Below are positions 1-16,056 of a stretch of 30,274 bases of DNA, piece by piece. The position numbers and the translations under genes were made by a program. Below the pieces are notes generated by a model. It saw only the letters and a list, made by a program, of their open reading frames with translations. It ran no database searches and was not told the origin of the DNA. The DNA lies in the IMG/VR virus record IMGVR_UViG_3300024518_002971, positions 1-30,274 of that record, one strand, 5' to 3'. The stretch comes from a virus. Positions within the stretch are counted from its first letter, which is position 1. Each line of letters starts with the position of its first letter.

Positions 1-393
1 ACCGGGGATGACACAGACAATATCTTCGAGGCGGTAGTTCCTACCGTTGATATAGATGATCAGATAGTCAAACCACTGCCAGATATCGAAACAGCTCAGA
101 GGATTATCACTACTGCCAGTCCTACCGCTATTCTAAAAACAGATGGTGTGATGCTTTTTGATAGTACTTCAGTGACTATCAGTATAACATTGCCCGCTGC
201 TAGTTTAGGAAAACTCAAAATACCTTTCAAAGATATCGGCGGGAATTCCAGTGTTAGAAACATCACCATCAATCGGGCAGGGTCTGACACTATTGTAGAT
301 TCAGCAACAGGTCAAACATCAACAATAATTTCAAGTAATGGCTTCTCTGGGTATTTTTTATCCAATGGTGTTGATACTTGGTACTTATTCTAA
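1..393 (+). CDS. Virion appendage protein, C-terminal part (5' end outside window)
   Basis: The frame is open from the first base to a TAA at 391-393, so this is the last 130 residues of a longer protein. The visible part is rich in Thr, Ser, Ile and Gly, with alternating hydrophobic residues (for example TVTISITLPAAS-like strands, then KDIGGN and NITINRAGSDTI) and ends in GVDTWYLF. This style is typical of C-terminal beta-structured domains of phage fibre or head-decoration proteins. The next gene follows 12 bases later in the same direction. The exact role cannot be fixed without the N-terminus; a virion surface protein is likely. Confidence 0.6.
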   Translation, partial: TGDDTDNIFEAVVPTVDIDDQIVKPLPDIETAQRIITTASPTAILKTDGVMLFDSTSVTISITLPAASLGKLKIPFKDIGGNSSVRNITINRAGSDTIVDSATGQTSTIISSNGFSGYFLSNGVDTWYLF

Positions 394-405
394 GGGAACA
401 TTAAA

Positions 406-2034
406 ATGTCTAAAATTACTTCAGGATTAACAACTCACCAGATAAGCGCAGACGAGACCGGCAATAGTACAAAGGTATTGTTAACATCATCAGCAACTTT
501 TACCGGTGCTTGGGAAGATGTCACTGCTTTTGCTACCGTAGCGGTGGCTATTAAAGGCGATAATTCAACAGACGGGACTCTTTACATTGAATCCTCACAA
601 GATGGCGGAATAACTGTCAACTCTGTTCCTTTCGTGGTGGCAGATGCTAGTTTTGATTTACCTCATTTATGGAATGTCGTTGAAACTCACATTAGAGTAA
701 AGTATACAAATGGCACTACCGCACAAACTGGACATTTCCAACTTCAAACTAAGTATTCAAATGCTCAACAGTTGGGATTACTTCAACAAGCTAATGACAC
801 TATTAATGGTGAAACTGATGTTCAGATTGTCAAGTCGGTAGGAACTGGAGCAAACGCAGATGGTGCTTATGTAAATCTACCTGCTAATGGTATTGACAGT
901 AATAATACCCTTTCAGTAAATCTGGGCATATCTGGAGTTTTTACAGGTACGTGGACAGATGTAAGAAATTACTCAGAAATTAGAGTTTCCTATGATGCCG
1001 ATAAGCAGGGAGCTTCATGCTTTCTACAATTTAGTCCAGATGCTTCAACGGTTGAAAGAAGCATTTCCGTACCTCCTCAGGCGAATACCCTGCAAACTAA
1101 CTTTGGAGCGGTGCATACATTAAATCCTATCCTTACTTACTTCAGAGTAGTATACACGAATGGGACAACAGCCACAACGTCCTTTAACTTCACTACTTTA
1201 TTATCGGTTACTACTGGCGGAGGTTTAATTTCAAGATCAACACAGATACTGAATAAATATAACGATGTTGGTCTTCAGCGAGTAATCAACTCCGCCGATA
1301 GTGATAGAAACTTTGGTCTCTTGAATTATCAAACAGCAGGTAGAAAGTTTGGGCACAATAACACTGTCGGCACCGGAGCTTTTGAAACTCTTTGGACTTA
1401 TACTGCGGATTGGATACCAGCACAGTCAGCAGAGACTATACGTATTAAAGCTGGCGGTAATGCTGCGGATGATACGGCTGGCGCAGGTGCCCAAACAGTG
1501 GAGGTTACTTTCTTAGATGGTAACTGGGATGAGGTTACAGAGACTATTGTAACGGCTGGAGCCTCAGCAAGTTTAGCAACCACAGCGACTTGTATTAGAT
1601 TACTAAGAGCCAGAATTGTTAATATAGGAACATATCACGGCCACAATACTGGGGCAATTACTTTTGAGCAGACGACCAGTGCTGCTATTATGGGCTATAT
1701 TGATGCTGATGCTGGCACGACCGAACAGGCTATTATGTCAGTTCCACAAGGCAAAACCTTATATATCACTAACATTCTTGTATCTGTCGGTCAGGCAGAT
1801 AGCGCAGATGTAAGAATCAAGCACGTTGCTGCGGCCAATGACGTTACAACACCGTTCAGAGCAGGTTATGTTGAGTGGGAGATTGAAGACTTTAGCGGTG
1901 CTCAGACGTTTCAGCCTAGAACTTATTTAAAGTTTGAAGAGTACGCTGATATCTACTGTGAGGCTCAAAGAATAACCGGTTCAGGAAGTGCCCGTGTTTC
2001 AATTGATTTTGATTATATCTTAATCGATAATTAA
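406..2034 (+). CDS. Beta-rich virion structural protein with two tandem repeat domains
   Basis: 542 aa, preceded by an AAGGGA Shine-Dalgarno about 9 bases before the ATG. Residues of roughly 25-130 and 170-275 are two copies of one domain: each has an F/GxW-x-DV segment, a central D...G...S-x-D strand region and a (F)RVxYTNGTTAxT ending. The C-terminal half contains AGGNAADDTAGAGAQTVEV-like and PQGKTLYITNI-like segments, known in style from marine phage structural proteins. It lies upstream of the head-tail connector gene and ends at a strong terminator. I infer a capsid-decorating or appendage protein; a receptor-binding role is possible. No enzyme motif is visible. Confidence 0.6.
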   Translation: MSKITSGLTTHQISADETGNSTKVLLTSSATFTGAWEDVTAFATVAVAIKGDNSTDGTLYIESSQDGGITVNSVPFVVADASFDLPHLWNVVETHIRVKYTNGTTAQTGHFQLQTKYSNAQQLGLLQQANDTINGETDVQIVKSVGTGANADGAYVNLPANGIDSNNTLSVNLGISGVFTGTWTDVRNYSEIRVSYDADKQGASCFLQFSPDASTVERSISVPPQANTLQTNFGAVHTLNPILTYFRVVYTNGTTATTSFNFTTLLSVTTGGGLISRSTQILNKYNDVGLQRVINSADSDRNFGLLNYQTAGRKFGHNNTVGTGAFETLWTYTADWIPAQSAETIRIKAGGNAADDTAGAGAQTVEVTFLDGNWDEVTETIVTAGASASLATTATCIRLLRARIVNIGTYHGHNTGAITFEQTTSAAIMGYIDADAGTTEQAIMSVPQGKTLYITNILVSVGQADSADVRIKHVAAANDVTTPFRAGYVEWEIEDFSGAQTFQPRTYLKFEEYADIYCEAQRITGSGSARVSIDFDYILIDN

Positions 2035-2047
2035 TAATTAAACATCC

Positions 2048-2081
2048 AAGGCCATCATCTTTCGAGGTGGTGGCCTTTTTT
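2048..2081 (+). terminator. Intrinsic terminator
   Basis: A 13-bp stem (2048-2060 with 2065-2077, including two G-T pairs) closes on a TTCG loop at 2061-2064 and is followed by a T run to 2081. It ends the transcription unit of the two upstream structural genes, 14 bases after the stop codon. Confidence 0.92.
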
Positions 2082-2098
2082 ATGCTTAGGTTTGTGTA

Positions 2099-2127
2099 TT
2101 GAAAAAAATGATATAAGAGGGTATAAT
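2099..2127 (+). promoter_or_regulatory. Sigma70-type promoter for the connector/tail operon
   Basis: TTGAAA at 2099-2104 and TATAAT at 2122-2127 are separated by exactly 17 bases, directly after the terminator and 27 bases before the next start codon. The leader AATAGGC at 2141-2147 supplies the ribosome binding site and recurs after the fibre promoter at 10347. Confidence 0.8.
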
Positions 2128-2154
2128 AATTAAAAATATTAATAGGCGTTGATA

Positions 2155-2769
2155 ATGAGAATCGAGTTAAAAACTGGCCCAATTGTAAATCCTGCCGTAA
2201 CTTTGGCCGATGTAAAGACTTACGCCTTCAAAAATACTTCTAGTTATGATGGTAAAATTACCTCTTTATTGATTCCTGAACAACAGTATTTAGAGGAATA
2301 TATAGGCCGTAAATTGATAGATCAGTCTTGGTACATTTACCTCGATGCTCTTGAATATTCCGACCGTCTACAGGCTTATAATAAGTCAATCACGCTTTCT
2401 ACATTCAATGTTTCTTCCATCGTTGAAGTAACGAAATACGACCAGTTTAATACTGCCACTGTTGAAACTGCATCCAATTACAGACTATCCGGCAATCAAT
2501 TGTCAGATGTAAGCATGTTAGTTTATAATGATACTTATTCGCCGACCATGAACAACCTTAGAACTGTTGACGCTGTAAGAATCGAAGTCATCGCCGGTTA
2601 TGGTTTACTTGCTGCCGATGTTCCTGGAACTATTATCCAGGCTTTATCAGTTCAGATTGATCAAAAGGTTAGATTTGGCAATAAGATCACCGAAAGTTCG
2701 ACCGAATCATTCAACGAAAACTATCAAAATTTATTAATGCCTTATAGGTCTGTGGAGAATTGGTACTAA
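2155..2769 (+). CDS. Head-tail connector protein (HK97 gp6 / phiE125 gp8-like)
   Basis: 204 aa. The protein starts with the pattern of the gp6/phiE125 gp8-like family: an N-terminal VTLADVKTYA segment, a helix with LLIPEQQYLEEYIGRKLI, then DQSWYIYLD, with a late helix of TIIQALSVQIDQKVRF type. Members of this family form a ring under the portal and connect head to tail. A TTG at 2149 is also in frame, but the AGG at 2144-2146 sits 8 bases before ATG 2155 and only 2 before the TTG, so I chose 2155. It is the first gene of the tail operon and overlaps the next gene as TAATG. The family call rests on pattern and position. Confidence 0.75.
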   Translation: MRIELKTGPIVNPAVTLADVKTYAFKNTSSYDGKITSLLIPEQQYLEEYIGRKLIDQSWYIYLDALEYSDRLQAYNKSITLSTFNVSSIVEVTKYDQFNTATVETASNYRLSGNQLSDVSMLVYNDTYSPTMNNLRTVDAVRIEVIAGYGLLAADVPGTIIQALSVQIDQKVRFGNKITESSTESFNENYQNLLMPYRSVENWY

Positions 2770-3041
2770 TGGCGATGTATAGCGCGGAATTTATTAAAGA
2801 TCACACCTTTTTGCTCAATGGTAAAAGATATTCTGTCTCTGTAAAGCAACAAAGGCGCTTGGCAACTCTTAAGATGGCTAAAGATTTAAAGCTTTCTTTG
2901 GAAAACCTAGACCGCGAATTTAGTGCTGGCCGTAAAAAAGAACCGGCTCCGCTCAAGTTTGAAATACCTGCATCCTGGAAAGCTTCTTGGATGGACAACG
3001 GGATTATTAAAGATACTCGCAAGAAAAAGAAAGATGCCTAA
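2769..3041 (+). CDS. Small protein of the head-tail joining region, unknown function
   Basis: 90 aa, starting in a TAATG overlap with the connector gene; GGAG at 2754-2757 is its likely ribosome binding site. It is Lys/Arg-rich, with a basic KKKKDA end and a helix around residues 25-45. No family is recognised. Its place between the connector and the neck protein suggests a role in head completion, but this is inferred from position only. Confidence 0.6.
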   Translation: MAMYSAEFIKDHTFLLNGKRYSVSVKQQRRLATLKMAKDLKLSLENLDREFSAGRKKEPAPLKFEIPASWKASWMDNGIIKDTRKKKKDA

Positions 3042-3480
3042 CCCATTCGATAAAGCAAATAAACTTATAGCAGATACTCTTGAGGCTAATTCAGTAGCTT
3101 ACAAGGGTGAATTTGCCGTTAGTATGTTGCAGGAATTTGCTCGGGATACTCCAATTGATACCGGCAGAGCTACGGGCAATTGGATCTTAAGAGGCGGTAG
3201 CCCTAATCTTAGACCAGTTAAATTTTTGGACAGAACAAGCACCGCTTCACCGACTGTGAATAGAGCCCGAAAAGATGTTAAAGGCATAAAGCTAAAAGAA
3301 ATGATTTATGTTTCTAATGCTGTTCAGGGCGAAGACGAACGGGGCAATTTTACCGGCGAAGGTTATATAATCGGATTAGAGAATGGCAAGTCAAAGCAAG
3401 CCCCTTTAGGTATGTTCATGATAAATGTTGTAAAGGCAAAAGAGATATCAAGACGAGCTGTCAAGAAGGCTATTAAATGA
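3034..3480 (+). CDS. HK97 gp10-like neck / tail completion protein
   Basis: 148 aa. It has an N-terminal helix, then the TPIDTGRATGNW segment (residues about 38-49), which is the hallmark of gp10-like and minor tail proteins (V/IDTGRxxxxW). A basic C-terminal helix (KAKEISRRAVKKAIK) follows. Proteins of this family sit between connector and tail terminator and complete the neck. The ATG at 3034 overlaps the upstream gene by 8 bases. The reading frame opens further upstream (2923), but that start would lie deep inside the previous gene and lacks a ribosome binding site. Confidence 0.7.
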   Translation: MPNPFDKANKLIADTLEANSVAYKGEFAVSMLQEFARDTPIDTGRATGNWILRGGSPNLRPVKFLDRTSTASPTVNRARKDVKGIKLKEMIYVSNAVQGEDERGNFTGEGYIIGLENGKSKQAPLGMFMINVVKAKEISRRAVKKAIK

Positions 3481-3962
3481 GTTTAGACACAGTCACTAGA
3501 ATTGTTGATTTCTTTGAGGCTAACGGATTTGTTAGCGAGCCAACCGGCGCTGAGATTTACACTATTTTCAGAGATAAGAATTATGACTTAGGGAATGATA
3601 GCGGCGGTGGGCCATTTTGTGAGGTCTTTATTGAGGCTTCAGGAGATAGTTTTGTTGGTTATGGGACAGCAATAGGTCCAGATTACACAGAGACTGGTAT
3701 TGTCGTTGTTCGTATATTCGCTGATGCTGGCTTAGGTGATTTAGATTTATACTCTCTTTCAAGAGTATCAGACATTATCAGGGACACTTTTAGAGATCAA
3801 ACAACAGGTAAACAATTGAAGCTTTGGCCGACTGGTGGTCAACAAGGGATGATATTATTCGAGGATATGAGCTCAAGGCAGACTATCGAAGACGATACGA
3901 CCTATGATACTGTTTACAGAAGAAAAGATATTTTTATCAATTATCAGAAAGTATATAACTAA
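3477..3962 (+). CDS. Tail terminator-like protein
   Basis: 161 aa, joined to the previous gene by an ATGA overlap. The fold pattern is an N-terminal helix (VTRIVDFFEANGF), a central beta region including GIVVVRIFADAG, a helix (LYSLSRVSDIIRDTF) and a C-terminal beta strand ending in DIFINYQKVYN. This matches the size, order and secondary-structure pattern of small tail terminator proteins that cap the tail tube. The position between neck protein and tail tube gene supports it. There is no single diagnostic motif, so the call is from context plus fold pattern. Confidence 0.6.
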   Translation: MSLDTVTRIVDFFEANGFVSEPTGAEIYTIFRDKNYDLGNDSGGGPFCEVFIEASGDSFVGYGTAIGPDYTETGIVVVRIFADAGLGDLDLYSLSRVSDIIRDTFRDQTTGKQLKLWPTGGQQGMILFEDMSSRQTIEDDTTYDTVYRRKDIFINYQKVYN

Positions 3963-3990
3963 TCTTAAATAAAAAAAATGGAGACATATT

Positions 3991-4395
3991 ATGTCGTTAG
4001 GAGTAGGCGCAGTTGATGTAACATTCGTTGGCTTGGCTGGTTCATATTTAGCAGAGCCAGGAACAACAGATGGTGCAACCGTAGCAAAAGTAAACGTAAC
4101 ACCTGCTGGCGTTACAGACGCAGAGTATTGTGCTGGTGATGTAAAAGAACAAACAGACCCAACAGCAACGCTATTAGCCGATTTTACAGTCGATGTTAAT
4201 GGTCTTGTTGGAACTTCTGGCTTGCTTACTTTTGCTTATCCTATTAGCAATACAGGCAATGCCACTAAAGCAACATTGAGCGGCACAGCTTTCTTGCAAT
4301 CTGCATCCGAAAAAAGTGGTCAGAATGTACGCAATGTATATGACCTTGTTTGGGTATGGGAAGGCGCTCCAACATTTAGCCCAGAAGCAGTATAA
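3991..4395 (+). CDS. Major tail (tube) protein
   Basis: 134 aa with a good ribosome binding site (GGAG at 3979-3982, 8 bases before the ATG). The protein is rich in Ala, Thr, Val and Gly, has almost no basic residues in its first half, and alternates strand-forming segments, as expected of a tail tube subunit. It is placed directly before the frameshifted chaperone gene, the normal site of the major tail protein in siphoviruses. It overlaps the chaperone gene as TAATG. It is short for the family, so a small decoration-free tube is likely. Confidence 0.72.
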   Translation: MSLGVGAVDVTFVGLAGSYLAEPGTTDGATVAKVNVTPAGVTDAEYCAGDVKEQTDPTATLLADFTVDVNGLVGTSGLLTFAYPISNTGNATKATLSGTAFLQSASEKSGQNVRNVYDLVWVWEGAPTFSPEAV

Positions 4396-4805
4396 TGGAC
4401 TTAAGCCCCAAAGATTTTACACAGGCTTTTCTTGATACTGAAGTTAGGAAATTAACTTTGAAGAGTATGAAAGGGAAAATTGTGTATCTTCGGGCGCTAA
4501 GCCATGCTGATACGGCAAGATTTAGAAGCATAGTCGATACAATGGAAAAGAAGACTGCTATTGCGGTATTTTCTGGCCCTGAAGTCGCTAAGATAGTCAC
4601 GCAAGAGTGCTATAATGATGCACATGATTATCTTATATTTAAGCTTCTTTGTAATAAAGATGGTAAGCGGTTCTTTACTGACCTCGATCAATTCAATGAA
4701 TGGTGTGAGGATATTAGTCAAAACCCTATCCAAGAGATATTAGAAGACATTAACAAGAATATTACTCTCTATCAAGACACTGGAGAAGAACACGAAAAAA
4801 AGTAG
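4395..4805 (+). CDS. Tail assembly chaperone, short form (G-like)
   Basis: 136 aa; the unshifted product ends at TAG 4803-4805. It has an N-terminal beta segment (VRKLTLKSMKGKIVYLRALS) followed by helices, and lies between the tail tube and tape measure genes, where the lambda G-like chaperone is encoded. Such proteins coat the tape measure during tail assembly and are absent from the virion. Its last codons, GAA AAA AAG, form an A-AAA-AAG slippery site that feeds the longer GT-like form. Confidence 0.85.
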   Translation: MDLSPKDFTQAFLDTEVRKLTLKSMKGKIVYLRALSHADTARFRSIVDTMEKKTAIAVFSGPEVAKIVTQECYNDAHDYLIFKLLCNKDGKRFFTDLDQFNEWCEDISQNPIQEILEDINKNITLYQDTGEEHEKK

Positions 4806-5179
4806 CGTTCCTCCGCGAAAATGTGGAGGCTCAATTCTTTTTTGACATGGCAGAAATGAGACAGTGCAATATTACTGATTTACTTGGTATAGAAAGGCAT
4901 CCTGAATATATAAGCCATAATGAAGTATTGTGGTGGATGGCAAGAAGCTGCCTAAAGCCTATGCCTTCCGTAAGAGATACGATATTTAATAATAACTTGA
5001 TGAATATTGGCTCAGTAAATCAATTTAACGGTCAGCGTATGTTTAAAGATACTGACATTAAATGGTATGAGTTGAGCAAAGAAGACCAATTGATGAGCCT
5101 TAAAGACCATGTGCATAAAAACCAGATGGCTCTAAACGAGAAGAGAAAGCGAGAAGCTGAAAATGTCGAAAGTAGTTGA
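4395..5179 (+). CDS. Tail assembly chaperone, long form (GT-like) by -1 frameshift
   Basis: When ribosomes slip back one base at 4796-4802, reading continues from GTA 4802-4804 without a stop to TGA 5177-5179. The fusion is about 261 aa: the 136 residues of the short form plus 125 new residues beginning VAFLRENVEAQ. The extension includes an acidic/aromatic segment (FFFDMAEMRQCNITDLLG) and a predicted helical end. In siphoviruses the GT form links the tape measure to the tail tube protein. A GTG at 4823 could start the second half alone, but the complete frameshift signal argues against this. It overlaps the tape measure gene by 17 bases. Confidence 0.85.
4782..4829 (+). promoter_or_regulatory. 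Programmed -1 frameshift signal (dnaX-like)
   Basis: Three elements lie in order. A Shine-Dalgarno-like GGAG is at 4782-4785, 10 bases upstream. The slippery heptamer A-AAA-AAG is at 4796-4802 in the correct phase. A hairpin pairs CCTCC 4810-4814 with GGAGG 4825-4829 and starts 7 bases downstream. The same architecture drives frameshifting in E. coli dnaX. Confidence 0.85.
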
Positions 5180-6713
5180 AGAGATAGTCTTAAAAGTCAG
5201 GGTTGATAATAAGCAATCTAAAAAAGCACTTAAAGGCTTGGGTGAACAGACTAAGACCACTACTAAAAATGTCGTCAATCTTGGGAATGCTTTTAAATTA
5301 GTTGCTGGATTAGCTATTGCTAATAAACTCAAGAATGTTGCCGTTAGTGCCATTGATGTATCAGACGCTTTTACACGTGTTGAAAATGCATTGCAGACAG
5401 TATTTGGAAGTCTTGGAGCAGCAAATCAGCAAATGGAATTCCTTGACGAGACTGCGAATCGACTTGGCACTGACCTTCTTGCGACCAGTAAAGGCTTTTC
5501 AATGATTGCAGCATCAGGCAAAAAAGCCGGATTATCTACCAAGCAAGTCCAAGAAATATTTACTGGTGCCTCTGAAGCTTCTGCGGCTCTTTCTTTATCG
5601 GCAGAAAATACTAATGGTGTTTTACTTGCATTCTCACAGATTTTATCAAAAGGAAAAGTACAGGCGGAAGAATTACGCGGACAGATTGGCGAAAGATTAC
5701 CTGGTGCTTTTAGTATTGCGGCTGATGCAATGGGTCTTAGTACCACAGAACTTGACAAGTTAATGCAGTCAGGCGAATTAGCTGCAAATGAATTCTTGCC
5801 AGCTTTTTCAAAGGCATTACAAGAGACTTTCCATGAGGGCGCAATGAAGAACGCCACTAAGTCTATTGCGAATGCTACAAGACAGCAGAATGAATATAAT
5901 AAATCACTTAAGGAAGTCGGCGGCCCGTTAAAAGATGTCGGCATTGAGTTGTCAACTATCCGAAATGAATTTCTTATCTTTGCTTCTGATGCTGCATTTA
6001 GTGTAACCGCAGCATTTGTAGATCTTATTGGGTATGGAGAGGAATTTAGAAAAAACCTAGACGCAGATGCAACTGAGATGTCGAATCTTTCTGATAAGAC
6101 TACTAAGGCCGCCACTAAAGTTGAAAAGTTCTCTAAGTCGATTGAAGCGCTCAATGGAATTTCCCTAAAACTAGAAGGTGCGCAGAAATTAGACGAGTTG
6201 AGAGATAAGCTTGGCCTCACAGAAAAAGGTTTTGAGATTTTAAAGAAAGGATTTGGCGGCGGAAAGTCACTCTTAAAGTTATTCGATGATAAAGATGAGA
6301 AGACGCAAGAGTTGTTTTTTGATAATGTAAATAAAATCCTCGCTGCTCAAAAAGGCGGGAGTAGCCAATTCTTTAAGATCAATCAGAAAGATATAGAATT
6401 TATAAAGACTCTTGATAAATGGATGGGTACAGAGTTTGATCCATTCGGCGGTTTAGATCCTGCTTTCGCTCAAACACTCGGTAAGGTTGGTGACTTCGCA
6501 AAGGCTGACAAAGATAAAATTCAGCCTGTCAACCTCGGCCCAACAGAAGCCCTTGAAGCTGGCTCAGCTGATGCTTTACGATTTGCATCTAGACCGATTG
6601 AAAAGAACATGGAAAAGATTGCCCAAGATCAACTTACAGTTCAGGGGCAGATCAAAGACGGTATTGATAAGATTGGAACGAATCAAAATCCAGTAAACAC
6701 GGCGGACATATAG
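5163..6713 (+). CDS. Tail tape measure protein
   Basis: 516 aa. Residues of about 65-220 match the phage tape measure N-terminal domain: the string AFSQILSKGKVQAEELRGQI and the following GERLPGAFSIAADAMG are diagnostic (around 156-191). An N-terminal helical, Lys-rich segment and a hydrophobic stretch (FKLVAGLAIANKL, 44-56) precede it. The rest is mostly helical. The protein sets tail length and is ejected with the DNA. At about 0.15 nm per residue it predicts a tail near 75-80 nm, which is short. It follows the frameshifted chaperone, as in lambda-like tails. Confidence 0.92.
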   Translation: MSKVVEEIVLKVRVDNKQSKKALKGLGEQTKTTTKNVVNLGNAFKLVAGLAIANKLKNVAVSAIDVSDAFTRVENALQTVFGSLGAANQQMEFLDETANRLGTDLLATSKGFSMIAASGKKAGLSTKQVQEIFTGASEASAALSLSAENTNGVLLAFSQILSKGKVQAEELRGQIGERLPGAFSIAADAMGLSTTELDKLMQSGELAANEFLPAFSKALQETFHEGAMKNATKSIANATRQQNEYNKSLKEVGGPLKDVGIELSTIRNEFLIFASDAAFSVTAAFVDLIGYGEEFRKNLDADATEMSNLSDKTTKAATKVEKFSKSIEALNGISLKLEGAQKLDELRDKLGLTEKGFEILKKGFGGGKSLLKLFDDKDEKTQELFFDNVNKILAAQKGGSSQFFKINQKDIEFIKTLDKWMGTEFDPFGGLDPAFAQTLGKVGDFAKADKDKIQPVNLGPTEALEAGSADALRFASRPIEKNMEKIAQDQLTVQGQIKDGIDKIGTNQNPVNTADI

Positions 6714-6714
6714 A

Positions 6715-7653
6715 ATGGCAATTACAAAATTATGTATTTACGGCCCACAGCCAGCGGCAACAACAACCGGAAGAACTACCAGTATTGGTGAAGATTGGAT
6801 TTGTATATTAGATGGTCAAGCAACGCCATCAACAGTCTTGGCACTATTGAGAGATGGTGTAGAAGCTTATGACTTCCCAAGTATCACGGAAGGCACTCAA
6901 AATGCTGGAGATCCAACGGTCAAGGCTGTTAATTTATCGGTCAAGCGTTTAGAAAATACCTCAGATCAGTCTAAATTCTTAGCCTCTGTCACTTACACTA
7001 ATAACACCACCACTTTAAGCAATTCTAATGATCCCCTTGAGGCACAGCCACAGATTACCGCTGATTTTGTTGATAGACTTGTAGTTGTTGAAAGAGAAAC
7101 GGTTCAAGTCAATGGCGTAAATCGGCAAATAACCAACTCAGCCGGCACTCAGATCATTGTTGAAGAGAATGACCCAATTCAGAAAGTCACAATAGTTAGG
7201 AATGAATCAGATTTTAGATTAAGCGATTCTAAAGCTCATGCCGGTAAGTTAAATCAGAACGCTGTTGTAATATTAGGGGAAAGTTTCCCCGCCTATAATT
7301 GTTTATTGCAGCGATGGAGCGGCACAAACCAATATGATGCTGATGGTAATCTTTACTGGCAAGTAACTTATGAGATATTAATTAACGATGGACCATTGAC
7401 CAAATCATTTGTACAAAAAGGCCGTGTCGATACAAACGGTATTGCCCCTTCTTTTGCTGGAGGAACAATCTCAAGTGAAGAATATAAGCTTGATGCAAAT
7501 GGAATTTTCCTCGATAAAGACGACCAAGTGAATCCAGGAATATTTAATGAAACGGATGATTTTGTTACCATTAAAGTTTCTAACTGGGGCCCGGCTGTAA
7601 GGCTTCAAGATTCGCCAGCTCTATCAATCAATGAGTTATCTGGGGGTTCCTAA
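6715..7653 (+). CDS. Tail tip / distal tail protein, family not recognised
   Basis: 312 aa, starting one base after the tape measure stop. It is beta-rich, with GEDWICILDGQATPSTVLALL near the N-terminus and a mid-protein segment AYNCLLQRWSGTNQYDADGNLYWQVTYEI that resembles oligomerising beta domains of tail tip proteins. There is no signal peptide or enzyme motif. Position directly after the tape measure suggests distal tail or hub function. The next gene overlaps as TAATG. Confidence 0.55.
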   Translation: MAITKLCIYGPQPAATTTGRTTSIGEDWICILDGQATPSTVLALLRDGVEAYDFPSITEGTQNAGDPTVKAVNLSVKRLENTSDQSKFLASVTYTNNTTTLSNSNDPLEAQPQITADFVDRLVVVERETVQVNGVNRQITNSAGTQIIVEENDPIQKVTIVRNESDFRLSDSKAHAGKLNQNAVVILGESFPAYNCLLQRWSGTNQYDADGNLYWQVTYEILINDGPLTKSFVQKGRVDTNGIAPSFAGGTISSEEYKLDANGIFLDKDDQVNPGIFNETDDFVTIKVSNWGPAVRLQDSPALSINELSGGS

Positions 7654-8348
7654 TGGGTGGCGCATGGGCATTCTCGAATCGTAATGATTTAGACAGAACT
7701 GGCAAGTCAGTAAAAGTTACTGAGGCATTAACATCCACTTTCGGAAGTGATGTCATTGCTGGTGTCGGTGCTCGTTATGCAAAGATAACAGAACTAATCG
7801 AAGGTGAGACCAAGATTGCTAAAGGCATGGCGGTTAAGTGGGATGCCGAAACTAGCGACTGGGTTGATAATGAAGATGGTGCTGTCTATGATTATGATAC
7901 ACTTACCGGAGCTGGCGACTCAGAGACAACAGTCACAATCCAATACACAAATAATATTACTTCACCTTCAGATTTAAATATTGATCAAATCGTTCGGCTT
8001 CAGTATTACCCGGGACTTTCGGACACTTCGCAATGGCTTGTTCTTGAAACTGGTGCTGGTTCTTCGACTACTTTACTTGATATCCAATCTGTTGATTCAG
8101 AAACCGGCATTTATACAGGTGCTATTTTAGATAATCCCACTGACCAGAATGAGATTGCCACAGATGTTTTAATTAAGACGCTTGAGGGAACCTCTAACAC
8201 CGATGCACTCTTGGGAATCCAAACTTTTTCATCTAAATCATATACAGAAGATATTCCAGAGGATGAGCTTGAAGAGCCCACAGAAGAAGAGCCTAACCCA
8301 CCGACAACAAGGCTTATTTATTATATCGAACCGCCGATAATTTACTGA
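7653..8348 (+). CDS. Tail protein with acidic PE-rich C-terminal linker
   Basis: 231 aa. The N-terminal 180 residues are beta-rich and unassigned. Residues of about 198-221 form an acidic proline-rich stretch (DIPEDELEEPTEEEPNPPTT) that recurs in the next protein. The final residues are aromatic (YYIEPPIIY). It overlaps both neighbours by one base (TAATG and TGATG), so the three genes are translationally coupled. It is probably a small tail tip component; the function is unknown. Confidence 0.5.
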   Translation: MGGAWAFSNRNDLDRTGKSVKVTEALTSTFGSDVIAGVGARYAKITELIEGETKIAKGMAVKWDAETSDWVDNEDGAVYDYDTLTGAGDSETTVTIQYTNNITSPSDLNIDQIVRLQYYPGLSDTSQWLVLETGAGSSTTLLDIQSVDSETGIYTGAILDNPTDQNEIATDVLIKTLEGTSNTDALLGIQTFSSKSYTEDIPEDELEEPTEEEPNPPTTRLIYYIEPPIIY

Positions 8349-9682
8349 TGGCTGGCTGGGATGATATAGAAGTTGACGGTCAATCACTTGGCGAGCTCGA
8401 ACCTGGATACATAATTGATATTAAATTAATCAATACCTATATAAAAGCCTATAATGAAAAGGCCAATATAGTAGAAGTGCCTCGTATTGATCCAATTGTA
8501 ACAGAGATCGATATTCCAGAAGAAGATCAGGAAGAGCCAACGCCAGAGAATCCAAATCCCCCCACGACAATGGATGCAGGCCCATATATATGGAATTATT
8601 CAAAGCTTACTGAGTTAGTTCAAGGCTATGGCCGACTAATGAATAACATCACATGGGTAAAAGAATCTGTTTTCCTTGATCCTCTCTCTGTTGATTCTGT
8701 TTATATCACTCAAACAGGCCAATTTGTCGAAGCTGATTTTATTCTATTGATTGGTCAGCTTAATTATGATATACTTTCTGACCCTTTTGATGATTGGCGT
8801 TTAAAGGACATTCAAAGCGCTAGTATGCTCAATGCAATGTATAAGCTTTATTCAGAGGTCTTTATTTATGTTGAGCGTGATTCTATACCTAATTCTCGAT
8901 GGAGCCTAAAGAGACATTCAATCAAGGATGGTCTTTCAGCTACTCCGCATAAGAGTGATTTCATTCCTAGAACTGGACAAAATGAGTTCTTTAAGGTTGA
9001 AGACTTCTTAAATGTCTCATTCAAAAATACTTATGAAAATCTAGAGTTTGCAGAAGAAGTTGATAATAGGCGGCAGGTTAATTTTAGTATTAATGATTCT
9101 CAGACCGCTCGTATTAATACTGGCGATGCGAACGACCCTGGTGGCACTGATATGTCATACAGCGCACAAGCGAGCATTAATCAAAGAATATTTAATACAG
9201 TGCTTCATACGTTTGTAAATGATGAAGGTGATTTTGTAGAGCTTGAATTTTCATGTGCTGGATATGTCACTAATAATCATATTGAGGATTCAACAACACC
9301 GGTTGAGACCGAGCAGATCACTATCAGTTCATTTGATAATGGGTATCCTCAAGTAGTTGGAGTGCAGCAAAATTACGTCAGAATTAAATGGCCTGATTTG
9401 GTTAATTCTGAGATTACTGACGATGGTTGGCTTTTCCACACTATATTAGAGAATCATCATGAATACGGAATAGAGACTGGTGAGTTTATTTATGATTTTG
9501 CAGATATACCGCCAAGGCCAAGCAACCCAAATGATACAAGAAAGGCCATACTTAAGAAGCTTTTATTATCATTAAAGACGGGAGATTCCCCGATAGACGG
9601 CAAGCGTCAAGACTATTATTATAATACGAATGTCGAAGCGATGATTTATAATACCTTGCCTGATGAAGAGGAAGAGCCTTAA
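8348..9682 (+). CDS. Tail tip protein, unknown family, shares linker motif with its neighbour
   Basis: 444 aa. Near residue 57 it carries DIPEEDQEEPTPENPNPPTT, almost the same linker as in the preceding protein, and it ends in an acidic LPDEEEEP tail. The body mixes helices (SMLNAMYKLYSEVFIYV) and beta segments. Its place after the tape measure and before the fibres would fit a hub or receptor-binding adaptor. The TAA at 9680-9682 overlaps the stop codon of the pseudopilin gene on the other strand, with no terminator between them. Confidence 0.5.
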   Translation: MAGWDDIEVDGQSLGELEPGYIIDIKLINTYIKAYNEKANIVEVPRIDPIVTEIDIPEEDQEEPTPENPNPPTTMDAGPYIWNYSKLTELVQGYGRLMNNITWVKESVFLDPLSVDSVYITQTGQFVEADFILLIGQLNYDILSDPFDDWRLKDIQSASMLNAMYKLYSEVFIYVERDSIPNSRWSLKRHSIKDGLSATPHKSDFIPRTGQNEFFKVEDFLNVSFKNTYENLEFAEEVDNRRQVNFSINDSQTARINTGDANDPGGTDMSYSAQASINQRIFNTVLHTFVNDEGDFVELEFSCAGYVTNNHIEDSTTPVETEQITISSFDNGYPQVVGVQQNYVRIKWPDLVNSEITDDGWLFHTILENHHEYGIETGEFIYDFADIPPRPSNPNDTRKAILKKLLLSLKTGDSPIDGKRQDYYYNTNVEAMIYNTLPDEEEEP

Positions 9683-10140
9683 AACATATCGGAAGTTGAA
9701 ACGACTGTAAATTTTATTATATTCCCGCTATCATCCAAGACTACTAAAACTTGATATGGAATTTCGTATGGGTCTAATAAGATTGTCCCTGTCGCAGCAC
9801 TTGCATCATTTGAATCGTAATTATTATTACTTGTATACATGTTATTCGATCGGTAGTCAATGAACATAGGCCTGACAGTGCCTTCCCACCCGGCATTCAA
9901 AGGGACATCGCTTAATTTTTCGGCAAAGTTTACGAGCTGAGTATCACTAAAAGGATAAGTATTATATCTTTCTTTGTACTGCCTGATAGCGGATTCAATT
10001 ATAGCTACTTCGGCTTTCATTTTAGTCTTATTTTGAGACCGAATAACTTTAGCACCTGCTACCCAAGATATTCCGATTAGGGTTATCAAGATTAGAATAA
10101 CAAATAATACTTCTATTAAAGTGAAGTTCTTTTTCTTCAT
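9679..10140 (-). CDS. Type II/IV pseudopilin (GspG-like), phage-encoded
   Basis: 153 aa from ATG 10140. It has the prepilin signature: a short basic leader MKKKN, then FTLIEVLFVILILITLIGIS with Glu at +5 of the mature protein, followed by the long amphipathic helix (KAEVAIIESAIRQYKERYNTYP) typical of GspG-like major pseudopilins. Leader cleavage would require the host prepilin peptidase; the residue before Phe is Asn rather than the usual Gly. Mature pilins assemble in the inner membrane into short fibres. An ATG at 10152 is also in frame, but ATG 10140 overlaps the upstream peptide gene as ATGA and gives a normal short leader. It is on the opposite strand to all neighbouring structural genes, like a moron. 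Confidence 0.85.
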   Translation of the reverse strand: MKKKNFTLIEVLFVILILITLIGISWVAGAKVIRSQNKTKMKAEVAIIESAIRQYKERYNTYPFSDTQLVNFAEKLSDVPLNAGWEGTVRPMFIDYRSNNMYTSNNNYDSNDASAATGTILLDPYEIPYQVLVVLDDSGNIIKFTVVSTSDMF

Positions 10141-10229
10141 GACATCACCCATATGTAAGTTAATCTTGTGACAGATATCATTAGCAATAATGTTAATGGA
10201 ATCAATAATTCATTCAGTATCTTTTTCAT
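10137..10229 (-). CDS. 30-aa putative membrane peptide upstream of the pseudopilin
   Basis: This short frame runs from ATG 10229 to TGA 10139-10137, overlapping the pilin start as ATGA. The peptide begins MKKILNELLIPLTLLLMISV and ends with RLTYIWVMS, so it is one basic end plus one hydrophobic helix. An AGGG about 10 bases upstream could serve as ribosome binding site. Translational coupling of this kind is the rule in this genome, which supports it. It could instead be chance reading through a leader. Confidence 0.4.
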   Translation of the reverse strand: MKKILNELLIPLTLLLMISVTRLTYIWVMS

Positions 10230-10260
10230 AAAAAAAGTGCCCTTATTTTGCCCTTGATAA

Positions 10261-10290
10261 TAATATAACCTAAAAAAAGATATGATGTAA
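10261..10290 (-). promoter_or_regulatory. Possible promoter for the pseudopilin module
   Basis: On the minus strand TTTACA (10290-10285) and TATATT (10266-10261) are 18 bases apart, about 32 bases before the small peptide start. The match is moderate and the region is AT-rich, so it is tentative. Confidence 0.4.
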
Positions 10291-10346
10291 ATTACAAATC
10301 ACTGGTTTTTATGTAATAGCATGATCGATAGAAGGTTGGCAATTCA

Positions 10347-10375
10347 TTGAAAATATCAATAAACACTCCTATACT
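10347..10375 (+). promoter_or_regulatory. Sigma70-type promoter for the fibre genes
   Basis: TTGAAA at 10347-10352 and TATACT at 10370-10375 are 17 bases apart, 27 bases before the fibre start. An AATAGGC leader at 10390-10396 supplies the ribosome binding site, as after the promoter at 2099. The two look like copies of one late-type promoter/leader unit. Confidence 0.75.
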
Positions 10376-10402
10376 ATATAAAAACAATCAATAGGCTGAT
10401 AC

Positions 10403-12808
10403 ATGATCACTGCACAGTACAAAGCCCCTGTTATAGTCGGTGGCACTTCACAAACTAAAACTTTCAAGGCACTTCCTGGCCAATTAATCAACAGACAATC
10501 CGGCGACTTAACTTTAATATACGAAGATACTACCGGTCAGCCTTTTGACGTGTCATCACTTACAGGCTCTGATTTTAAATGTGTTCCTTATGGTTCTGGT
10601 GAGACTCCAGTAACTTTAGCGGCTGGAGTAACTTCTTACACTGGTGAAATTTCCGTAATAACTGCGGCAACTGTTCCTGCAACTGGTGGTACTTTTACAA
10701 TCACTGTCGCGGAAGAGACTACCGGTGTAATCGCTTATAATGCTACTGCTGCAACTATCCAGACCGCTTTAGAGGCGCTTGCTTCACGAACAGGCGGTGA
10801 TTTTATAGTCACTGCTCTTGGTGCTCCTAATCTTGGTGATGTTGGCGCGAGCGTTGAGATTGAAACTTCAGGCGGCTTTGCCATAAACTTCAACTCAACT
10901 ATTGACACAGCTTCACTTACCGGCAATCCTCACACAATCTCGATCACTCAAGACGGCTCAAACATTCAGAATAATTATAATGTTGCTTGGCCTAAGGATA
11001 CTATCCCGGCTGAATATGCCGAATTTCCTGTTGATAGAGATGGCGCAATTTCCTTTTTTGTTGCTCTTGAAGATGCCGACGATTTCTTTCAGGCTTACCA
11101 AAGAGTAGCCATTGTTGATGATGTCTTCACAGTTACTGGCGGTGCAATTTCGAGTTCAGCAACTTATGTTTATAACCCTACCGATAATAATAACTGGCTG
11201 CGCTATGCAACATCAGCACCGGTTACACTTAACGATGGCTTAGATAAAGTAGTTGATAGAAACTTTAGAGACTTTGGCGCAGTATTAGACTTGCTTGCTA
11301 CTCCTCCTGGTTCACCTGCTGACGGCGATGCTTATTTAGTTATAGCAACTGCCACCGGTCTATGGCTCAGTAAAGAAGGCAAGATTGCAAAATATTCGTC
11401 AACTACTACTAACTGGACTTTCTCGAATGTTCATAAGAACGGCGATGAGATACTTGATTTAGATTCTGGCGATGGATACAGATATGATGGAGCGGCTTGG
11501 GTTGTTACTTCCCCGGCGATTGGTGCTAACACTATTGCAAACAGCCAACTTGCTCAAATCAATCAAAACATAATTAAAGGCCGTGTCTCTACTGGTCTTG
11601 GCGATGTCGAAGATTTAACTGAGGTACAAGCTAAGACTGTTTTAAGTCTTGATCAGGTAGATAACACACCCGACTCAACTAAACCAGTTTCAACGGCTCA
11701 AGCTGCGGCAGATAATTTAAGAGTACTAGAAAGCACAGTTTCAGTTGCTAAGTTTAACGCAAGTGCTTTACAAGGTACTGATATTTCTACTGGAACGCCT
11801 TCTAATGGTGATGTCTTAGCTTATAATTCAGGAAATGACGAGTATGAGCCTGTTGCGGCTGGCGGTGGTGGTGGTGTAAATGGCGGCATATCTTTCCAGA
11901 CTAACTTTGAAGTTGATGTTACAAGCTCAGAACCTGCAACCGGTGGCATTAAGTTTAACTCAGCTACAATTGCAAGTGTCACAATCATAAGAGTTTCGGC
12001 AACTGATGCAAATGGCGTTGATATTAATGACCGCCTTTCGACTATTGGCAATGGCGACTCTTTTTATTGTCGAGTTCTTAACGGAACTACAAAATGGCTT
12101 AAAGTTTCTGTCACAAGCTCAACTTTAGTAACGACTTCATATGATATTGTTTGTGCTGTCGTTGGCGGAACTGGCGTTCTTCCTGCCGCAGCTGACATAC
12201 TTGGCATTGATCCAGAAATTATTACAACTGGCGGCACCGGTAATGTTGCAACATTTAACGGAAGAGCTGGTGCTGTTGTCTCGGCTAATACAGATTATCC
12301 AAGTTCAATTATTCCTGATTCATCTTCACTTGGTGGCCCTTTTGTTTTTGACTCTCTTGACACTTTAAATACTTCTAAAGTCGCAACAACAAGAAATGTA
12401 AACACCGGTTCAACTTTGACTGGTGGCGGTGACTTAAGCGCTGACAGAACTTTAGATATTGATTTAACTAATTCAAATACCTACACGGCTCAGCAAGTAT
12501 TTAGCAATGGCAATTTAACTGATGCACCAAGTATTGTTTGGGATGTAGAAGATAAGCAGTCAACAGCGGTGACACTTACAGCAAATAGAGCCTTAGCAAA
12601 TCCCACAAACCAGATAGACAAAGGCACTTATGTTTTGCGTGTAGTCCAAGATGGCACCGGTTCGAGGACTTTAACTTTCGGGGCCAATTACAAATGGCCA
12701 GGAGGCACCGCACCGACTTTAACGACTACAGCGGGTGCCGTGGATATAATCAGTTTCGTTTCAGATGGAACTAACATGTATGGAGTCTTCCAAGGAGACT
12801 TTAGCTAA
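10403..12808 (+). CDS. Large tail fibre protein with DUF2793-like segment
   Basis: 801 aa. The N-terminal part is beta-rich and includes an ATAATIQTALEAL helix-strand segment. At about residues 285-375 there is a DUF2793-like region (ATPPGSPADGDAYLV, KIAKYSSTTTNWTF, GDGYRYDGAAWV). A linker with Ala-rich helix (AQAAADNLRVLEST) and a poly-Gly stretch near 485 follows. The C-terminus (TAVTLTANRALANP ... GTYVLRVVQDGTGSRTLTFG) is a fibre-end domain common in marine phages. It is the first gene behind its own promoter and overlaps the next gene as TAATG. It likely contacts the host surface or its polysaccharide; no hydrolase motif is visible. Confidence 0.75.
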   Translation: MITAQYKAPVIVGGTSQTKTFKALPGQLINRQSGDLTLIYEDTTGQPFDVSSLTGSDFKCVPYGSGETPVTLAAGVTSYTGEISVITAATVPATGGTFTITVAEETTGVIAYNATAATIQTALEALASRTGGDFIVTALGAPNLGDVGASVEIETSGGFAINFNSTIDTASLTGNPHTISITQDGSNIQNNYNVAWPKDTIPAEYAEFPVDRDGAISFFVALEDADDFFQAYQRVAIVDDVFTVTGGAISSSATYVYNPTDNNNWLRYATSAPVTLNDGLDKVVDRNFRDFGAVLDLLATPPGSPADGDAYLVIATATGLWLSKEGKIAKYSSTTTNWTFSNVHKNGDEILDLDSGDGYRYDGAAWVVTSPAIGANTIANSQLAQINQNIIKGRVSTGLGDVEDLTEVQAKTVLSLDQVDNTPDSTKPVSTAQAAADNLRVLESTVSVAKFNASALQGTDISTGTPSNGDVLAYNSGNDEYEPVAAGGGGGVNGGISFQTNFEVDVTSSEPATGGIKFNSATIASVTIIRVSATDANGVDINDRLSTIGNGDSFYCRVLNGTTKWLKVSVTSSTLVTTSYDIVCAVVGGTGVLPAAADILGIDPEIITTGGTGNVATFNGRAGAVVSANTDYPSSIIPDSSSLGGPFVFDSLDTLNTSKVATTRNVNTGSTLTGGGDLSADRTLDIDLTNSNTYTAQQVFSNGNLTDAPSIVWDVEDKQSTAVTLTANRALANPTNQIDKGTYVLRVVQDGTGSRTLTFGANYKWPGGTAPTLTTTAGAVDIISFVSDGTNMYGVFQGDFS

Positions 12809-14382
12809 TGTTTACGCATCCTGTTTGCTTTCTAGGGGCTGCGGGTACATCTACCCCAACTCTTTATAATACTTTAGGTTTAGACATTGCCGAGTCTCAA
12901 TATCTAAGCTTAACAGATTCCACAGATTTTAATTTTGGAACAGCATATACATTTTGTTGCTGGGTTTATCCTACTGATTTATCCGTTGAGAATGGAATTT
13001 ACAATCAGCCTGGCAGCTCTTTAAACTTTGCTCAAATGTCAATACTTCCAACTGGTAAGATGAGTTTTAAGGCAACTTATGGCGGCACAATTTCAATTGA
13101 TATTGAATCAGATGTAACCCTTCTTGAAAATAATCTTTATATGATCGGCTTTCAGGTAATTGGAAGTACACTTTCTTTTATTATTAATGGCGTTCACGAT
13201 ACTAATTCAGGCTCTTTTGCTGTCGCTCCGAATGATTTGGCAACTAACCTTCAGTTGGCCCGGGTTCATGAGGGGGTAAACTTCTTTTACTTTTCCGGTG
13301 CCTTTTCTTTACCGATGGCCTTTCAAGCAGCTTTAGGTCCACAGGCTTTATTAGATATCTATAATGGCGGCACAGCTAAACAACCTGAATGCTACGATGC
13401 AACGACAATCACAGATAATTACGCTTTTGCTATTCCCTTAAATGATGGCGTTGATTCTGGGCAAGAGCTTGTTGACGTTTCAGGAAATGGAAATAATGCT
13501 TTTTTATTCGGATCACCTACACCGGTTTATGATGGAGAGCAGCAAGGGATTCTTACTTGCCCAGGTGGTGGCGATCCTACTATATTCGCAGTCAATAGTG
13601 CTTCTTATAATGGTGTTTCTAATTATTTCAATGGCGGCGATATACTCGATGTTGGCACAGGCGATGCTTCTGTCTCTTTTTGGTTTAAGACAACCAATGG
13701 CGGCACCACTGCAAGAGCCTTAGTGACTAAACAAAATGGAGCTTTCCCACAGTGGGGTATTCGTACAAACTCTAGTGGTACTATAAATGCAGCGGTAGAG
13801 GTTAGTGGCGGCCATTCATATTATTATGACACCACTAGCACAGTAAATGATGGCATGTATCACCATGTTGTGTGGATCTTCAACCGAGCAAGTAATATTC
13901 CTATTGTATATATTGATGGATCTTTAGAAGCTATGGTTGATGCTGGATCTGTTGGCGATGTCTCAACAGGTAGCTTATCGAATTCAGCTAATTTATTTAT
14001 TGGCGCAAGAGACCTAGTAAGTAAGTTACTTATGATTGGATCAATGGCGTTTATTAGGATGGCGGCTGAAGATTTAGACTCAACTGATGTGGCAAATTTG
14101 TATAACTCTGGGAACCCCCGCTGTTTCGATGGTATAGCCGCAACAACAAAAGCAAAATTAACAGCTGCCTGGGAGCTTGGAAACTGGACAGATTCAACCG
14201 GCACAGAGATTGAGGACAGGGTTGGAGCTAACGACCTAACCAATGTTGGTTCGACGCCGTTCACTGAATCAGGCTTAGATGTTTCATGTGGCGGCACACC
14301 ACCAGCCGAAACTTTCAATATCCTTACCGAATCAGGCGACTCTTTAACAACCGAATCAAGCGATAATTTAATACTGGAGTAA
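12808..14382 (+). CDS. Virion protein with two LamG/concanavalin A-like domains
   Basis: 524 aa. Two jelly-roll lectin-like domains are recognisable: one at about 25-200 (FNFGTAYTFCCWVYPTD, then FKATYGGTISI, FIINGVHDTN) and one at about 265-450 (YFNGGDILDVGTGDASVSFWF, then YHHVVWIFNRASNIPIVYID). Both have the strand pattern of LamG-type domains, which bind glycans. The C-terminus is Thr/Ser/Glu-rich (FNILTESGDSLTTESSDNLI). It sits between the big fibre and the spike, so it probably forms part of the adsorption apparatus. Confidence 0.72.
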   Translation: MFTHPVCFLGAAGTSTPTLYNTLGLDIAESQYLSLTDSTDFNFGTAYTFCCWVYPTDLSVENGIYNQPGSSLNFAQMSILPTGKMSFKATYGGTISIDIESDVTLLENNLYMIGFQVIGSTLSFIINGVHDTNSGSFAVAPNDLATNLQLARVHEGVNFFYFSGAFSLPMAFQAALGPQALLDIYNGGTAKQPECYDATTITDNYAFAIPLNDGVDSGQELVDVSGNGNNAFLFGSPTPVYDGEQQGILTCPGGGDPTIFAVNSASYNGVSNYFNGGDILDVGTGDASVSFWFKTTNGGTTARALVTKQNGAFPQWGIRTNSSGTINAAVEVSGGHSYYYDTTSTVNDGMYHHVVWIFNRASNIPIVYIDGSLEAMVDAGSVGDVSTGSLSNSANLFIGARDLVSKLLMIGSMAFIRMAAEDLDSTDVANLYNSGNPRCFDGIAATTKAKLTAAWELGNWTDSTGTEIEDRVGANDLTNVGSTPFTESGLDVSCGGTPPAETFNILTESGDSLTTESSDNLILE

Positions 14383-14385
14383 AAA

Positions 14386-15390
14386 ATGGCAGATACAAAA
14401 TTTAGTGAATTACCCGTAAAAAGCACAGCTGTTGATTTAATAGCGGATATTTTCGCGGTTGTCTCGGGTGGAGTAACAGAGCAGGTTCCAGCGAATCTTA
14501 TACCTTTTACAAAGATATTGACCGCTTCGACAAGCGTTTATATTGCGACTACCGGCAATGATACTACAGGAGATGGTTCTGTTGGCCTTCCATACTTAAC
14601 GCCACATAAGGCTTATGAGCATTTACAAGACTATTTTCTAGGTGCTGGAGTTATTGCAACTATCCAGTGTGCTGCCGGTACTTATACGCATGCTTCGACT
14701 CTTATTCCTTATCACCCTCAAGGCTCACAAATAATCTTAAGTGGTGCGACTATGTTGGGTACTGTCGTTGATGGGGATTTTGTTGCAAGTGCAGCCACGA
14801 CCACGACTAATCTTGAGACTAGATATGCGACAATTTTTAGAGGCAACTTTGCTGGTGCAATGATATCCTCTGGAGATTTTGGCACTGAGTTATTATTTAG
14901 ATGTGAAGATATCTTATTTGATGGCAATGCGGTGTCAACTTATGGCCTATTGATGACGAATGGCTCAAACTTCAGATGTGTCGGGATAAGCTGCATAAGT
15001 ATGGTTGTTCGGGGCGTGCATATTGAAGGCGGTGGTTTAGGCGATATTAATGGTGATTCTAGTCTTAGTCATGGTGCCATTGGTTTATGGTCAGACACTA
15101 ATTCAACTATTTTAATGATTGATTGTTTTACTCCTTATAATACTGACACCGGCATTTTCTGCACTGGAGGGTCTCAATTGACTGTTTTTAATACTGTCTC
15201 AAGAGCAAATACAAATGATGATTATGTTTCGTCTGATGTATCTTATATGCGCATAGCAAGCGGATTGGCTACAGGCCAGTTTGTCAGATGCTCAAATCGA
15301 TCCTCAATAAATGCTGCCAGTGTTGGGGGTGTTACTTATTCACCTGCTCACGCTGTGAACGGTAATAATGATTCAATAATCTACGCTTAA
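14386..15390 (+). CDS. Tail spike with right-handed beta-helix
   Basis: 334 aa. The N-terminal 45 residues (TKFSELPVKSTAVDLIADIFAV) resemble virion-attachment segments seen on many fibres. From about residue 50 (STSVYIATTGNDTTGDGS) onward the sequence follows the pattern of a parallel beta-helix of pectate lyase type, with repeated turns such as ATIQCAAGTYTHASTLIPYH and GLLMTNGSNFRCVGISCISM. Such spikes often bind or cut capsule or exopolysaccharide. I see no certain catalytic residues. GGAG within the last codons of the previous gene serves as ribosome binding site. Confidence 0.72.
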   Translation: MADTKFSELPVKSTAVDLIADIFAVVSGGVTEQVPANLIPFTKILTASTSVYIATTGNDTTGDGSVGLPYLTPHKAYEHLQDYFLGAGVIATIQCAAGTYTHASTLIPYHPQGSQIILSGATMLGTVVDGDFVASAATTTTNLETRYATIFRGNFAGAMISSGDFGTELLFRCEDILFDGNAVSTYGLLMTNGSNFRCVGISCISMVVRGVHIEGGGLGDINGDSSLSHGAIGLWSDTNSTILMIDCFTPYNTDTGIFCTGGSQLTVFNTVSRANTNDDYVSSDVSYMRIASGLATGQFVRCSNRSSINAASVGGVTYSPAHAVNGNNDSIIYA

Positions 15391-15400
15391 GAGGTTTATC

Positions 15401-15655
15401 ATGCAAATAGTTATTAAAGAAGATAAAGTATTCGCTATCCACACTAATGACCAGGATTTAGATGGTCACTATGATGGCCTAGAAGTCTTGGAAATTGATG
15501 GCGTTAAGCCGCATAAAGAAGATGGAACGCCAAAGACTAAGACTGAATTAGTCTCCGAGTCTGACGGTATGTCAAAGAAGGCTACTAAGCTTCAGAAATT
15601 AGCCAAGATGGTAATTAATTTAAAAGCCAGAGTTGATGCATTAGAAGGCAACTAA
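15401..15655 (+). CDS. Small protein after the spike, unknown function
   Basis: 84 aa, with AGAGG about 8 bases before the ATG. The N-terminal half is a beta-type segment (QIVIKEDKVFAIHTNDQD) and the last 30 residues (KKATKLQKLAKMVINLKARVDALEGN) form a probable coiled coil. It overlaps the next gene as TAATG. Placement suggests a fibre chaperone or a small tip protein, which is inference from position only. Confidence 0.55.
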   Translation: MQIVIKEDKVFAIHTNDQDLDGHYDGLEVLEIDGVKPHKEDGTPKTKTELVSESDGMSKKATKLQKLAKMVINLKARVDALEGN

Positions 15656-16056
15656 TGACAGATAAGCAAATAGAAAAGTGGTTTGTAGAGCTTCCAGAGT
15701 ATGAATCTTATGTAATGGCTATTGGTCATTATAATAAAGATCTTGGATATGCCGGGCCGAATAACAGTAAGGTTTTAGAGTATATAATTCCGGAAACTTT
15801 ATATGGTATTAATCTAAATCCGGCTTTTTATCAACACGATGCGAATTATTCAATAGGTGGAAACAATAAAGACCGCTGGAAATCTGATGTCACCATGGTA
15901 GCAACTGGTTTATTCATTATAGAAAACACTCCAGATAGATGGTATTTGTGGGGAGTTAATACAGCCAGGCGTCACATGGCACGAAATAGATTAGTAAAAT
16001 ACTTTGAGGCTGTAAGGTCACAAGGCCATAAGAGCTTTAACTTTAGTGGTAATTGA
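15655..16056 (+). CDS. HDxxY-motif protein, phospholipase A2-like
   Basis: 133 aa. The centre reads YQHDANYSIGGNNKDRWKSD (residues 59-78), giving H61-D62-x-x-Y65 with G68, G69, D73, R74 and D78. This HDxxY arrangement followed by a glycine turn, an Arg and an Asp resembles the catalytic helix of secreted and prokaryotic phospholipase A2-like proteins, and also small phage proteins of DUF1353 type. There is no signal peptide. If enzymatic, it could hydrolyse membrane lipids at entry or lysis. It is the last gene of the fibre unit. Confidence 0.5.
   Translation: MTDKQIEKWFVELPEYESYVMAIGHYNKDLGYAGPNNSKVLEYIIPETLYGINLNPAFYQHDANYSIGGNNKDRWKSDVTMVATGLFIIENTPDRWYLWGVNTARRHMARNRLVKYFEAVRSQGHKSFNFSGN

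Follow-up and report, generated by a model that had tools for sequence, protein, structure and literature searches.

A probable lambda-type −1 ribosomal frameshift site with a dnaX-like heptamer, an upstream GGAG and a downstream hairpin at the end of a viral tail assembly chaperone gene

The window, that is, the whole stretch of DNA analysed here, is a 30,274-base virus record with a G+C content of 38.8%, the first part of which is a tail module. The genes and features of this module that concern the present analysis are as follows:

2923-3480, neck protein (phrog_169)
3477..3962, + strand, tail terminator (phrog_179, E 8.4e-8)
3991..4395, + strand, major tail protein predicted by position, 134 aa (gene order only)
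4395..4805, + strand, G, tail assembly chaperone ORF, 136 aa (phrog_344, E 8.9e-8, residues 16-136)
4782..4785, + strand, Shine-Dalgarno-like (SD-like) GGAG, with 10 nt between it and the heptamer, read from the sequence
4796..4802, + strand, slippery heptamer A AAA AAG, in phase with G (codons AAA AAG TAG)
4802..5179, + strand, T, −1 frame extension, 125 aa (open frame, resemblance to the T domains of relatives)
4810..4829, + strand, hairpin stem CCUCCGC/GUGGAGG, after a 7 nt spacer (4803-4809) that follows the heptamer
5163..6713, + strand, tape measure protein, 516 aa (PHROG tape-measure families, best E 1.3e-47; Pfam TMP_3, 2.3e-33)

The tape measure gene, identified by its PHROG and Pfam matches, lies directly downstream of the G/T region. 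The 134-aa ORF at 3991..4395 had no PHROG or Pfam family match and no match in phage records, so that it is labelled a major tail protein by position only. Elsewhere in the window, the minus strand at 17434-19141 encodes an exonuclease and a RecT-like annealing protein, in the orientation opposite to that of the tail genes, and the plus strand at 24035-26025 encodes a DnaD-like loader and a DnaB-like helicase; no tRNA genes were found in the window.

An earlier, sequence-only reading of this DNA had described a cassette of three elements at the end of the chaperone gene, and the GGAG, the in-phase A AAA AAG and the downstream hairpin are all present where it had placed them. The position it gave for the hairpin, 7 nt downstream of the heptamer, also holds, although it had named five of the seven stem pairs: positions 4810-4816 pair with 4823-4829 to form 7 bp, including one G-U, around the loop GAAAAU. 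The stop codon TAG of G (4803-4805) is immediately 3' of the heptamer, and no stop interrupts the −1 frame from 4754 to 5176 (its own is at 5177-5179), confirming the claim that this frame stays open to the end of the next one and would give a 261-aa form, the predicted G-T fusion (136 + 125 aa). The heptamer AAAAAAG as such is not enriched (18 matches on both strands against 18.09 expected); this copy matters because it is in phase, sits right at the end of G and has an open frame beyond it.

Viral-contig scans with G, T and the tape measure protein returned a single near relative, IMGVR_UViG_3300024520_000903. Its G shows no differences from that of the window, and the four differences in its T are all third-position changes that are synonymous in the −1 frame. 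The sequence-only reading had named a lack of heptamer conservation among close relatives as a point that would count against the site; in this sole comparable contig the heptamer is identical. Neither G nor T had a match in 50,697 phage records (tblastn; for G even at E up to 10), and the exact cassette is therefore comparable with one near-identical contig only. Identity to this contig is close to 100% as far as about position 5250, beyond which it drops steeply within the tape measure gene (about 5250-6184), with 45, 35, 77 and 76 differences in successive bins, which is a sign of recombination or fast change. This contig matched phrog_344, whereas four tape-measure relatives (JBD25, S-ESS1, KPN U2874 and 9NA) had no phrog_344 match at E 0.001 and for this reason were not used as G homologs. 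A scan of genome contigs returned only an Oleispira gene, which we take to be an arginine decarboxylase and which was rejected as a chance match to one peptide.

In a profile comparison with the T domains of 17 relatives, the T of the window scored 23.7 (E 0.0013, 59 columns, hhalign probability 18%), against scores of 7.8-13.7 (E 0.11-0.78) for five other window proteins compared with the same domains as a control. Given that the hhalign probability is only 18% and that T had no PHROG or Pfam match, the link to these T domains is suggestive rather than strong. G profiles compared with T profiles showed no likeness (E 0.18).

The phrog_344 family search covered two overlapping draws of genomes, with matches in 4 of 369 and in 16 of 398, and gave 21 loci in total; five of these relatives were compared with the G of the window and are only 17-20% identical to it. 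An in-phase A AAA AAN occurs in 18 of the 21 loci, including two near-identical loci of one genome (L012 and L015) that are cut by contig ends, and in 16 of the 21 the −1 frame runs on from the site for 100 codons or more without a stop. The three loci lacking A AAA AAN comprise L027, which has C CCA AAA with 102 codons open, and L014 and L031, whose sole heptamer is T TTT TTC, with 56 and 65 codons open. A predicted −1 site at the end of G is thus a habit of the sampled phrog_344 family. The SD-position counts used 16 of these loci (without L012, L015, L014, L031 and L027), L027 being restored to make the 17 of the wider set described below, and the percentile comparison used 19 of the 21 together with the window (without L014 and L031).

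A wider sample was drawn from three T-alignment scans, of which the best 80 of 145, the best 80 of at least 479 and the best 80 of 304 viral loci were taken. Among these 240 loci, the best 80 per scan, a canonical site was present in 210 and absent from 26, and four loci were incomplete. Clustering of the 210 sites at 85% gave 94 clusters (the A9 scan contributing 10, the A7 scan 27 and the A8 scan 57), which, as viral clusters from the best 80 loci per scan, were combined with the 17 genome loci into a set of 111 sites. These comprise 81 A AAA AAC, 11 A AAA AAG and 19 others, counts that lean towards AAAAAA heptamers because these were preferred when a locus had several candidates; the AAATTTN and GGGTTTN sites, few in number, may have been miscalled. 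The stop codon follows the heptamer immediately in 24 of the 111 sites, an upstream GGAG, GAGG or AGGA is found in 73, a hairpin exceeding synonymous expectation (p ≤ 0.05) in 31, and both stimulators in 19. The window resembles these sampled prophage and viral chaperone-T sites (L011-L271) in its in-phase heptamer and −1 T frame, and differs from them in its heptamer and its stimulators, since 81 of the 111 have A AAA AAC and the two stimulators do not occur together in any of the 11 A AAA AAG relatives.

The same sample bears on whether the fusion could be made by transcriptional slippage on the seven-A run at 4795-4801 rather than by slippage of the ribosome. Seven consecutive A are present at the site, and among 94 A AAA AAN sites of relatives such a run occurs in 44, a run of eight in one and a run of nine in two. 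Long A runs are known slippage sites, given as An with n above 7 (PMC3711429); seven A falls just under this limit, and at 91 of the 94 sites the run is six or seven A long. In addition, the fixed codon phase of the A run and the hairpins beyond synonymous expectation in 31 of the 111 sites fit tandem tRNA slippage, and an origin of the fusion in transcription is accordingly judged improbable.

The hairpin was assessed in several ways, and they differ in what they indicate. The stem alone has an energy of −11.6 kcal/mol (centroid). Dinucleotide shuffles folded as well as the native sequence in 15 of 200 cases for a 48-nt stretch (z −1.43), in 13 of 200 for a 45-nt stretch (z −1.76) and in 35 of 200 for the whole 81-nt cassette (z −0.87); by shuffling alone, the hairpin is unremarkable to moderate and the whole cassette unremarkable. 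Among sampled same-strand positions, its percentile is 0.022 or 0.016 in two samplings. When the T protein is held fixed, random synonymous versions match the stability of the hairpin in only 3 of 3000 cases, and the same synonymous test at other coding positions of the window gave 3 of 471 as extreme. The hairpin thus exceeds what codon choice gives.

Other pairings and roles of this region were also noted. The slippery A run (4796-4802) can pair with a U run at 4837-4843 just past the hairpin in the isolated 81-nt fold, a pairing not above that of shuffles (35 of 200, 81-nt fold). The arms of the stem consist of the anti-SD core CCUCC (4810-4814) and the SD core GGAGG (4825-4829), and the 5' arm could also pair, more weakly, with the upstream GGAG (−6.8 against −12.4 kcal/mol as duplexes). 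As a terminator the hairpin was rejected, since the only plus-strand match in a scan of 4300-5300 lies at 4554-4567, away from it; the same scan gave one minus-strand match at 4817-4791.

The presence of an SD core in the 3' arm raises a further alternative, in which there is no programmed shift and T is made separately from GTG 4823 or ATG 4847, aided by the GGAGG at 4825-4829. Both codons are in frame in T. However, GTG 4823, the first possible start of T, lies inside the hairpin and overlaps the start of the GGAGG, while ATG 4847 sits 17 nt past it, a distance generally too great for initiation. The recurrence of an in-phase heptamer and an open −1 frame in most sampled relatives also speaks against separate synthesis, which we regard as very improbable, even more so than slippage in transcription.

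The evidence on the upstream GGAG is of another kind. The anti-SD duplex of this region has an energy of −6.4 kcal/mol, which ranks at percentile 0.028 when same-strand positions are sampled from 1-16000. Anti-SD binding this good occurs at none of 95 same-phase positions in G, although five of them have GGAG, GAGG or AGGA. However, 2736 of 5000 synonymous recodings of the same residues (about 55%) bind the anti-SD at least as well, so that the GGAG is explained by the encoded residues and gives no evidence of selection by itself: it is present 10 nt upstream, yet is no more than codon choice predicts.

In the wider sample, the same SD 4-mers occur at 14% of same-phase positions within G (1261 of 8843, viral clusters), which serves as a background. 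Clusters with A AAA AAC carry an SD 4-mer in 51 of 69 cases, against a synonymous expectation of 35.6 (sd 3.0), whereas the viral clusters with A AAA AAG do so in one of nine (0.7 expected) and those with G GGA AAC in five of nine (4.5 expected). Because it exceeds synonymous expectation in the A AAA AAC relatives, the SD stimulator is a recurring device of these genes, and the figures suggest that such stimulators have been selected at their A AAA AAC sites and not at their A AAA AAG sites. A variant of the frameshift reading, and one compatible with it, is that the shift is real, the GGAG incidental, and only the heptamer and the hairpin matter. The synonymous recodings and the near-expected count at the A AAA AAG viral clusters favour this variant; the excess among A AAA AAC relatives opposes it, as does the spacing of 10 nt, which equals the SD-to-heptamer spacing of 10 nt in dnaX. 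On balance, an incidental GGAG is quite plausible, though we lean slightly towards a role for it.

The sequence elements, the membership of G in its family, the weak resemblance of T to the T domains of relatives, and the in-phase heptamer that most sampled relatives share at this place are direct observations. A tail-chaperone fusion made by frameshifting is well supported by the gene order, by the family to which G belongs and by where the site lies in relatives, and the site is very probably a lambda-type G/GT programmed −1 ribosomal frameshift. As in lambda G/GT, a chaperone gene is followed by the tape measure gene, and a −1 shift near the 3' end of G would lead to fusion with a putative T domain. 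The lambda heptamer is G GGA AAG; the window differs from lambda in having A AAA AAG, a G stop codon directly after the heptamer, and both an upstream GGAG and a downstream hairpin. The −1 frameshift of lambda-type G/GT tail assembly chaperones was reportedly described by Levin in 1993 and Xu in 2004.

From these features we infer slippage itself, its level, the role of each stimulator and the function in assembly. Most ribosomes would terminate G at the TAG at 4803-4805, while those slipping back one base would continue through T to yield the 261-aa G-T fusion. G would then coat the tape measure protein, and the T domain of the fusion would recruit tail-tube subunits. This follows the lambda model as outlined in PMC5009743, in which G attaches to the tape measure, tail-tube subunits arrive with the less abundant G-T fusion, and the molar ratio in lambda is 30:1. 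Two phage tail-chaperone genes for which measurements are given in PMC3711429 shift at 6% and 7%. Since measured tail chaperones shift at such low levels (6% and 7%, and 30:1 in lambda), efficient shifting, which the sequence-only reading had predicted, is not a safe prediction for the window, and the codon-neutral GGAG calls for the same caution.

In the design of the site the window resembles Escherichia coli dnaX, for which the literature describes A AAA AAG, an upstream SD-like sequence and a downstream hairpin (PMC3711429, PMC7282821), the 5' SD and the 3' stem-loop acting as stimulators (PMC5009743, PMC7282821, PMC3711429). The dnaX shift occurs at about 50% and shortens the product (PMC5009743, PMC3711429), whereas the shift in the window would extend it by 125 aa, and the dnaX stem has 10 bp (PMC7282821) against 7 bp in the window. 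The −1 frameshift of insertion sequence (IS) transposases, common in the IS3 family, is also similar in that it gives rise to a fusion, although the genes and their function differ; a 5' SD stimulator is present in an estimated 56% of IS elements (PMC5009743).

Sites of this kind are already well known in tailed phages, and the window represents a new, well-equipped example. It provides a clear case of a recoding site in a phage whose G and T are unmatched among the phage records searched, and its consequence for annotation is that 4395-4802 should be joined with 4802-5179.

The view that all three elements together are unusual has to be divided. It does not stand for the wider group, in which 19 of the 111 sites of relatives have both stimulators and the three-part cassette is not rare. 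For the dnaX heptamer it does hold within this sample: of the 11 A AAA AAG sites, one has an SD 4-mer, one has a hairpin and none has the two together, and the three-part cassette with this heptamer occurs only in the window and its close relative. An SD 4-mer is found at 60 of 81 A AAA AAC sites against 1 of 11 A AAA AAG sites, and a hairpin at 25 of 81 against 1 of 11. Ten of the 11 A AAA AAG sites come from a single T lineage, which comprises the A9 sequences and relatives of these, and the contrast between heptamers may therefore be one of ancestry.

The frequency of stimulators at A AAA AAC and their near-absence at A AAA AAG could possibly reflect a trade-off, confounded by lineage, between the strength of the heptamer and the stimulators. 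A more specific proposal, which we consider rather unlikely, is that weak A AAA AAC sites carry selected SD and hairpin helpers and strong A AAA AAG sites none, the window being an exception whose host reads AAG with a less slippery lysine tRNA and so needs help. If the trade-off were true, the stimulator load would report the tRNA-Lys set of the host, and the contrast in SD selection would link the design of the cassette to codon reading in the host. No statement of the heptamer-stimulator contrast in tail chaperones was found in the literature searched, which included PMC5009743, PMC10885494, PMC7282821 and PMC3711429 and covered few subscription papers, and no claim is made that it is unpublished.

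A different sequence recurs at the end of G in the viral loci without a canonical heptamer. Of these 26 (within L202-L271), among the best 80 loci per scan, 18 have GCA AAG TAA at this position, which suggests that in such genes a single tRNA may slip on A AAG.
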